From Pseudozobellia sp. WGM2 (GTDB lineage Bacteria; Bacteroidota; Bacteroidia; Flavobacteriales; Flavobacteriaceae), in contig NZ_JADNYK010000001.1 of NCBI RefSeq assembly GCF_017810075.1, forward strand, positions 310,001 to 374,000: 64,000 bases of DNA, written 5' to 3'. Positions 7,184-8,604 of this stretch are shown here, in pieces. A program made the position numbers and the translations under genes. The notes below the pieces were generated by a model. It made no database searches, had not been told where the DNA came from, and was given only the letters and a program-made list of their open reading frames with translations. Each line of letters begins with the position of its first letter. The first letter of the stretch is position 1.

Positions 7184-7201
7184 TGTTATATTAGGTATTT
7201 G

Positions 7202-7223
7202 GCTTATATGTTAAAATATAAGC
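7202..7223. promoter_or_regulatory. Upstream operator-like inverted repeat of the SatD operon
   Basis: A perfect inverted repeat: GCTTATAT at 7202-7209, a 6-bp spacer, and ATATAAGC at 7216-7223. The same architecture recurs 56 bp downstream. It is a likely binding site for a dimeric DNA-binding protein; the helix-turn-helix of SatD itself is the obvious candidate. Confidence 0.6.
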
Positions 7224-7257
7224 ATTTTGAATTATAATTTTAATTATTAGTTTTTTT

Positions 7258-7279
7258 GCTTATATTTTTATATATTAGC
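7258..7279. promoter_or_regulatory. Downstream operator-like inverted repeat of the SatD operon
   Basis: GCTTATAT at 7258-7265, a 6-bp spacer, and ATATTAGC at 7272-7279 (one mismatch to the perfect arm). It ends 17 bp before the GTG start at 7297, so bound protein would block transcription or translation initiation. Confidence 0.6.
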
Positions 7280-7296
7280 GCTTTAACTAATAATAG

Positions 7297-7905
7297 GTGA
7301 TAGCAATCATAACAGGAGACATTATAGGGTCGGGCAACCACAGCTCAGACGCTTGGCTTAGCGTTCTCAAGCAATATTTTGTAAGATTTGGTGAATCTCC
7401 CACCGACTGGGAAATTTATCGAGGAGATGAATTTCAGCTAAAAATACCTCAAGATAAAGCATTGAGCACCGCTATTTATATTAAGGCTTTACTGAAGTCT
7501 ACGAAGGGCCTCGATGCTCGCATGGGCATAGGTTTGGGTAGTGAAACTTTTGTAGGTGTTGGAGTGAGCGAGTCAAATGGCCCGGCGTACCAGCGTTCTG
7601 GCAGAACATTTGAAAGTTTGAAAGAAGACAAATTAAATCTTACTATTGCAACGGGCCATGGCTTTTTCGATGAGACTTTGAATTTAATGCTCAAGTTGGC
7701 CCTAGATTTCATGGATGACTGGAGCCCCGTGTCAGCAGAGATCGTAGTACTGGCCCTCGATAACCCCGACGCATCACAAACAGAAATTGCAAAACGCCTT
7801 AATATTCAGCAATCGGCGGTTAGTCAACGTCAAAAACGGGCTCGGTTAGATTTAGTGCATCAATTATTGGCATACTACTCTAAAACTTTAAAAGAATTGA
7901 AATAG
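7297..7905 (+). CDS. SatD-family protein with C-terminal helix-turn-helix
   Basis: 202 residues starting at GTG. The N-terminal domain (about 1-135) matches the SatD family, named from an acid-tolerance locus of Streptococcus mutans; its biochemical activity is not established. Conserved segments are ITGDIIGSG (5-13), RGDEFQ (42-47) and RMGIGLG (75-81). These resemble the metal-binding and substrate motifs of class III cyclase and GGDEF domains. A winged or sigma-like helix-turn-helix follows (QTEIAKRLNIQQSAVSQRQ, 161-179). The stop codon abuts the ATG of the DUF3307 gene, so the two are translated from one mRNA. Two matching inverted repeats lie upstream, suggesting autoregulation. Confidence 0.8.
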   Translation: MIAIITGDIIGSGNHSSDAWLSVLKQYFVRFGESPTDWEIYRGDEFQLKIPQDKALSTAIYIKALLKSTKGLDARMGIGLGSETFVGVGVSESNGPAYQRSGRTFESLKEDKLNLTIATGHGFFDETLNLMLKLALDFMDDWSPVSAEIVVLALDNPDASQTEIAKRLNIQQSAVSQRQKRARLDLVHQLLAYYSKTLKELK

Positions 7906-8604
7906 ATGATATTGTTTACAAAGTTATTGCTGGCCCATCTTATTGGTGATTTTCTGTTGCAGCCTAACCGATGGGTAATTCATAAAGAAGTACATAAGGC
8001 AGGATCTAGATATTTATATTTTCATGTTTTGCTTCATTTTTTGGTAACTCTTTTATTGTTATGGGATTTAAAGTACTGGAAGCTTGCGCTCATAATAATG
8101 GTTTCACATTGCTTGATCGATTTGGCCAAATTGCATGTTACACCTTTATTTAAATTAAAAAGTATTCCGTTTTTTATCGATCAGGTCTTACATATTACCA
8201 TAATATATATATGCGCATTTTATGGTAATTTATGGGGGCATACGGCCCAACTTTTCAATGATTTAGATTGGGCACTTATAACAGCTATTGTTTTTGTTAG
8301 TTTCCCATCGGCAATAATTATGGGTAAGTTATTGGAGGCTATGTCAGATAAGATTGAATTAGACCATAAGTCTTTGCCAAATGCAGGCAAATATATTGGT
8401 ATTATCGAAAGGCTTTTTGTTCTTATGTTTATAATTATGGGGCGTTGGGAAGCAATAGGTCTTCTAATTGGTGCCAAGTCGGTTTTTCGCTTTAACGACC
8501 TCAAGGAGAGTAATAACCGTAAATTGACGGAATACATTTTAATAGGTACTTTACTTAGTTTCGGGCTTGCAATTTTAGCGGGTATAATCTATGTTGGTAA
8601 TTAA
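7906..8604 (+). CDS. DUF3307 integral membrane protein
   Basis: 232 residues, strongly hydrophobic, with about six transmembrane helices. The N-terminal HLIGDFLLQPNRW and the later HCLIDLAK segments are the conserved polar signatures of DUF3307; the spaced His and Asp residues inside helices could bind metal. The function is unknown. The ATG directly follows the TAG of the satD-like gene. SatD and DUF3307 genes are often adjacent in my recollection, which fits a regulator or nucleotide-binding partner with a membrane effector. Confidence 0.82.
   Translation: MILFTKLLLAHLIGDFLLQPNRWVIHKEVHKAGSRYLYFHVLLHFLVTLLLLWDLKYWKLALIIMVSHCLIDLAKLHVTPLFKLKSIPFFIDQVLHITIIYICAFYGNLWGHTAQLFNDLDWALITAIVFVSFPSAIIMGKLLEAMSDKIELDHKSLPNAGKYIGIIERLFVLMFIIMGRWEAIGLLIGAKSVFRFNDLKESNNRKLTEYILIGTLLSFGLAILAGIIYVGN

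Follow-up and report, generated by a model that had tools for sequence, protein, structure and literature searches.

The window analysed here is a 64-kb stretch of DNA from Pseudozobellia sp. WGM2 (contig NZ_JADNYK010000001.1, assembly GCF_017810075.1), and positions are given in its coordinates. A two-gene operon lies on its forward strand. The first gene (7297-7905) starts with GTG and encodes a 202-residue SatD-like regulator with a cyclase/GGDEF-like domain at about residues 1-120 and a C-terminal helix-turn-helix (HTH). The second (7906-8604) encodes a DUF3307 membrane protein. Upstream of both, positions 7189-7292 hold a tandem array of four imperfect 20-bp palindromes of the form TAT-N14-ATA, which repeat at a pitch of 28 bp and are separated by AT-rich linkers of 8 bp. 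Read on the forward strand, the units are TATTAGG-TATTTG-GCTTATA (7189-7208), TATAAGC-ATTTTG-AATTATA (7217-7236), TATTAGT-TTTTTT-GCTTATA (7245-7264) and TATTAGC-GCTTTA-ACTAATA (7273-7292). The 3' end of the array is 4 bp from the GTG, and a direct-repeat search finds a 28-bp period with three copies at the same place.

The preliminary description of this DNA had recognized two 22-bp inverted repeats. The first, GCTTATAT-GTTAAA-ATATAAGC at 7202-7223, has perfect arms, as described. The second, GCTTATAT-TTTTAT-ATATTAGC at 7258-7279, is also real, but its arms, said to be identical to those of the first, contain one mismatch. The 56 bp reported between the repeats is their start-to-start distance, the actual gap being 34 bp, and the second repeat is parted from the GTG at 7297, which it was said to adjoin, by 17 bp. 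These repeats are the junctions of units 1 and 2 and of units 3 and 4. The 22-bp motif is thus a register-shifted junction of two adjacent sites rather than a binding unit, and there are four sites, not two. Both possible registers employ identical half-sites. Two points favour TAT-N14-ATA: it fills the window array with whole units, and the 20-bp palindrome stays constant while the linker shifts from 8 to 9 bp between arrays of 28- and 29-bp pitch. Stand-alone 22-bp operators were rejected on both grounds.

Within the window by itself, the excess represented by the array is modest. A scan for four units at 28-bp pitch places it first in the 64 kb with 21 of 28 arm pairs, while the next separate place has 18 of 28 and 30 simulated windows reached 17-20. 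The 22-bp pattern occurs three times in the window at up to three mismatches, against 0.53 expected. Across the 4.7-Mb genome, the scan that had been proposed finds solely these two repeats as sites with at most one mismatch; at up to three mismatches there is no excess (33, versus 32 for a reversed-pattern control). A wider regulon was considered and rejected, as the lone two-mismatch site elsewhere in the genome is within coding sequence and a two-unit search matches this locus alone, revealing no second array; isolated single sites may nonetheless occur elsewhere. The absence of the motif upstream of orthologous operons had been named as a result that would count against an operator. The literal 22-bp sequence is indeed not conserved there, so this test would fail, but for the wrong reason. 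It is the cross-species evidence described below that is decisive.

The regulator matches the Pfam SatD family (PF16264) over residues 36-185 with 23.6 bits (E 4.5e-5), below the curated cut-off of 29 bits. For this reason it is called 'SatD-like' here rather than SatD, the name it was given at first. Its HTH matches Sigma70_r4 and HTH_24. The AlphaFold2 model (pLDDT 97) has a predicted N-terminal fold that resembles the palms of cyclases, GGDEF domains and Cas10. VIA Z scores are 9.6 to GTP cyclohydrolase III (2qv6; 108 residues, 2.9 A), 9.3 to 7yz9 and 8.4 to the DosC GGDEF domain (4zvg), and the best Foldseek E value is 2.2e-3; alignment against the sequences of solved structures gave nothing convincing. 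Across 60 sequences, residues D8, S12, G43, D44 and R75 never vary, and D8 and D44 are candidates for the two metal-binding Asp of the cyclase/GGDEF superfamily. Position 103, which is R or E, may match the transition-state Arg of cyclases. Since the modelled domain resembles cyclase/GGDEF palms, the protein may respond to a nucleotide.

The partner protein matches PF11750 with 89.3 bits (cut-off 23) and in the window is encoded directly downstream of the regulator. The same holds for a DUF3307-like open reading frame in 233 of 243 distinct satD-like loci, with an overlap of 4 bases in 132. The protein is predicted to be helical (pLDDT 91). Eight residues, H11, D15, H40, H44, H68, D72, D92 and H96, are invariant in 41 sequences, and these His and Asp residues resemble a membrane metal site. 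Structure searches gave no convincing match (best Foldseek E 1.1, best VIA Z 6.4), nor did alignment against the sequences of solved structures. A possible relation of DUF3307 to YdjM-like metal hydrolases found no support in a Pfam scan.

Of 149 genomes of the family, 86 have a homologue of the satD-like gene, as do 97 of 395 genomes sampled across the phylum. Autocorrelation of the sequences upstream of 70 family loci is 0.509 at a lag of 28 and 0.436 at 56, with other lags near 0.33. A free-period scan over 24-33 bp was applied to the 243 distinct loci (252 minus nine that repeat one protein together with its upstream stretch). Strong arrays (score at least 7) were found in 177, of which 139 have a period of 28 bp, 38 a period of 29 bp and none any other period in that range. 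The remaining 66 loci, which include most of the very divergent SatD-like proteins, have no clear array. In a control with 84 shuffled upstream regions, no score of 7 or more came up. Blind pattern searches are the cleaner evidence because the period scan rewards TAT/ATA ends. A blind three-unit pattern at 28 bp matches 47 of the 149 genomes, and in 46 of these every match is directly upstream of satD. At 29 bp, 15 of the 395 genomes match and in 14 the array adjoins satD. The exceptions are non-palindromic matches in G027, a genome without a satD match, and in G001. The array is therefore located almost exclusively at the start of the regulator's own gene. In one genome (G305:C17:70472-70781, locus L313), about eleven near-identical 29-bp units precede satD, an expanded array whose copy number is possibly variable.

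The arms of the palindromes vary in an orderly way. Among 201 units from representatives with 28-bp arrays, the outer TAT/ATA positions are almost invariant (about 1.6-1.8 bits, in a scan that favours TAT/ATA). Left-arm positions 4-6 carry 0.3-0.4 bits, and left-right complementarity there is still 0.64-0.84. Half-site identity at these positions is 0.75 within arrays versus 0.34 between arrays. Coupling of the arms to the protein was examined in 84 representatives, cut at less than 70% N-terminal identity; 4 of the 177 strong arrays, which were without 20-bp palindromes or at least three TAT half-sites, were left out. The best correlate of arm bases 4-6 across the set is residue 177, a member of the predicted recognition helix (residues 172-181, encoded at 7810-7839 of the forward strand; in the window protein it is Gln, codon 7825-7827). 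It reaches z 11.7 in the pair test on distant pairs. On permutation within clades it has z 16.9 and is followed by residue 103 of the N-terminal domain at 10.3. Because residue 103 ranks second in the pair tests, some of the signal in those tests is phylogenetic.

Residue 103 falls outside the top 12 columns of a test on a tree that was built without the HTH, where residue 177 ranks first of 179. Along this tree residue 177 changes 27 times and the arm class 21 times, and the two change together on 13 branches versus 5.0 expected, with no equal among 1000 null draws. Second and fourth in this ranking come residues 174 and 171, which belong to the recognition helix or adjoin it. Counted as both, residue only, arm only and neither, Gln177 against AG at arm positions 5-6 gives 24/4/8/48, Glu or Asp177 against C at position 4 gives 19/1/7/57, and Lys or Arg177 against C at position 6 gives 17/3/4/60. 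Tests on independent pairs, which are underpowered at no more than five supported pairs per trait, lean the expected way with none significant.

Given that the arms co-change with residue 177 and that the array is nearly exclusive to satD, binding of the array by the SatD-like protein, and with it autoregulation, is the most likely reading. The autoregulatory operator for the adjacent HTH protein that was first suggested thus gains support, and comparative sequence points strongly to the product of the satD-like gene itself as the probable reader of these sites. The array might instead be bound by a different regulator or a nucleoid protein, with SatD merely the regulated gene, and some arrays do contain more than one arm type. 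This is very unlikely, since an unlinked protein is not expected to make residue 177 of SatD the top coupled column or to confine the arrays to satD genomes. The arrays of L035 (TATTCC/TATCAC) and L058 (TATCTG/TATTAG) each mix two arm types in one promoter, and are perhaps in mid-transition between specificities.

SatD-like/DUF3307 pairs are also carried by plasmids of Vibrio lentus, Salinivibrio, Sphingomonas, Pseudomonas fragi and Enterobacter kobei, by E. coli pEC34A (3,770 bp) and a Klebsiella plasmid (4,424 bp), and by a plasmid of Segatella copri, a member of the Bacteroidota. A satD-like gene is present on a Pseudoalteromonas replicon whose record annotates no genes there. Among 14 outlying loci, seven (L295, L301, L302, L303, L305, L307 and L308) yield a 28- or 29-bp array in the scan. 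Two further arrays, in L297 and L304, were recognized by visual inspection, and no clear array was seen in the other five (L296, L298, L299, L306 and L309). L295 has three copies of TTAGCCATAAACGGCTAA-like palindromes at 28 bp, and L302 has five GGCCGG-N6-CTGGCC-like palindromes at 29 bp. The pitch known from Bacteroidota recurs on Proteobacterial plasmids, and the arms of these outlying loci bear no relation to those usual in Bacteroidota.

These loci also bear on the recognition code. CC in the arm accompanies K177 in 10 of 13 Bacteroidota representatives versus 2 of 71 with other residues. This rule was noted before the outgroup loci were fetched, and all seven outlying loci with K177 and a discernible array agree with it, counting L305 and L307, which are close relatives, and L297, which has CC in its left arms only.

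Tandem units at fixed pitch, together with the occurrence of the pair on very small plasmids, could also fit an iteron or centromere-like assembly site that serves plasmid or chromosome upkeep rather than transcription. We regard this as highly improbable: in chromosomes the array is tied to satD and located at the promoter, and the identified neighbour proteins in the window include no replication or partition gene. On pEC34A (L305:1792-3481) and the Klebsiella plasmid (L307:362-1937), the pair is the chief annotated cargo beside maintenance or small genes. As the chief cargo of plasmids of 3.8-4.4 kb, it may have a selfish, defence or maintenance role. In Sphingomonas insulae (L299:2769-2958) the gene after the pair is annotated as a Pycsar system effector family protein. 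PADLOC models, a non-exhaustive library, matched neither the SatD-like nor the DUF3307 protein. Searched for at near identity in E. coli genomes, the pEC34A cassette gave no match, and 14 named control genomes have no match to PF16264. A phage origin was rejected, since 50,697 phage records contain nothing that matches satD. Four IMG/VR contigs, host or viral, hold relatives, and a DUF3307 open reading frame is mentioned for a jumbo phage in an excerpt of one report (PMC8504454).

The position of the array relative to promoter elements suggests how it might act. According to a passage of PMC9723704, the flavobacterial sigma-A -7 box is TAnnTTTG, at -12 to -5. This box occurs near the array in 36 of the 84 representatives, with 37 boxes at unit phase 16-18, whereas coding DNA has 0.55 per kb. 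Ten boxes lie at offset +18 and six at +16, where the last unit ends. For 14 of the 35 -7 boxes that are in phase, a TTTG stands 20 or 21 bp further upstream; TTTG is the usual -33 element, and this spacing is typical. Where -33 and -7 boxes flank a unit, the geometry is that of a repressor site. No consensus TAnnTTTG was seen in the window, which leaves the promoter of its satD-like gene unplaced.

Two other mechanisms must be weighed against this geometry. In the first, the palindromes would not be DNA sites but RNA hairpins in the satD mRNA leader that form an attenuator or thermosensor, as might be suspected from their location immediately 5' of the start codon and from arms that keep their complementarity at positions 4-6 as species change. 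Such hairpins are very improbable. The -7 box is often found where the last unit ends, which places the array upstream of transcription, and the arms follow the recognition helix of a protein. Moreover, in 22 of the 44 units scored within the clade of the window type, position 4 is T on the left and A in the right half-site, which a hairpin would bring together as a T-T mismatch. In the second, SatD would bind the array to activate transcription, or both to activate and to repress it, for instance by placing RNA polymerase at in-register elements. Elements resembling -33 and -7 boxes are in register at part of the loci and most of the upstream units are far from the start, but the last unit covers -33 to -7 or the start region, where a bound protein more often causes occlusion. 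Activation is accordingly unlikely, though less so than hairpins.

The preferred reading, which we hold to be very probable, is that 7189-7292 serves the satD-DUF3307 operon as its operator, with four tandem sites for SatD-like dimers. One dimer would occupy each palindrome by means of its C-terminal HTH. The constant pitch points to contacts between adjacent dimers, such that the array could fill cooperatively. With sites that overlie or border the promoter, bound SatD would most likely repress its own operon. This repression may be lifted or set off by a nucleotide, or a related ligand, of the cyclase/GGDEF-like domain.

A more far-reaching synthesis, which is rather unlikely as a whole, would have nucleotide-gated, HTH-bearing cyclase/GGDEF palms polymerise along a 28/29-bp operator to control a mobile DUF3307 membrane module for stress or anti-phage signalling, with a one-residue code that retargets the system. 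A pitch of 28 bp corresponds to about 2.67 helical turns and three units to 8 turns, making a superhelical filament possible. If this synthesis is true, every lineage retargets operator and regulator together, which insulates copies from one another.

On the preferred reading, a widespread and functionally blank operon gains a regulator whose DNA code can be read and tested, and SatD operators elsewhere become predictable from sequence. The loci form a natural series of many joint changes of operator and recognition helix on a fixed scaffold, and they suggest that a cyclase-like fold can be the sensing part of a transcription factor. The open full-text literature searched on SatD, DUF3307, the sat operon and tandem autoregulatory palindromes contains no description of this operator, of the array or of a DNA-binding role for the SatD family.

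Three groups of known systems invite comparison. The window protein shares with the SatD family (PF16264; sat operon of Streptococcus mutans) an alignment over residues 36-185 and a two-domain layout, but differs in scoring under the family's gathering threshold. In S. mutans, too, SatD is paired with a DUF3307-type protein. A section of PMC10326533, citing Kremer 2001, derives the name SatD from secretion and acid tolerance. Class III nucleotidyl cyclases, GGDEF domains and Cas10 palms resemble the regulator in predicted fold and in the invariant D8 and G43-D44, whereas the SatD-like palm is fused to an HTH and has R or E at position 103. Finally, autorepressors with multiple tandem operators include those of NrdR boxes, MraZ repeats and toxin-antitoxin operators, which likewise have several evenly spaced sites before their own operon. 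Unlike these systems, SatD-like loci keep a 28/29-bp pitch across phyla while the letters of the sites change along with a single recognition residue, as would befit an autoregulator whose tandem operator is invariant in pitch and evolving in specificity.
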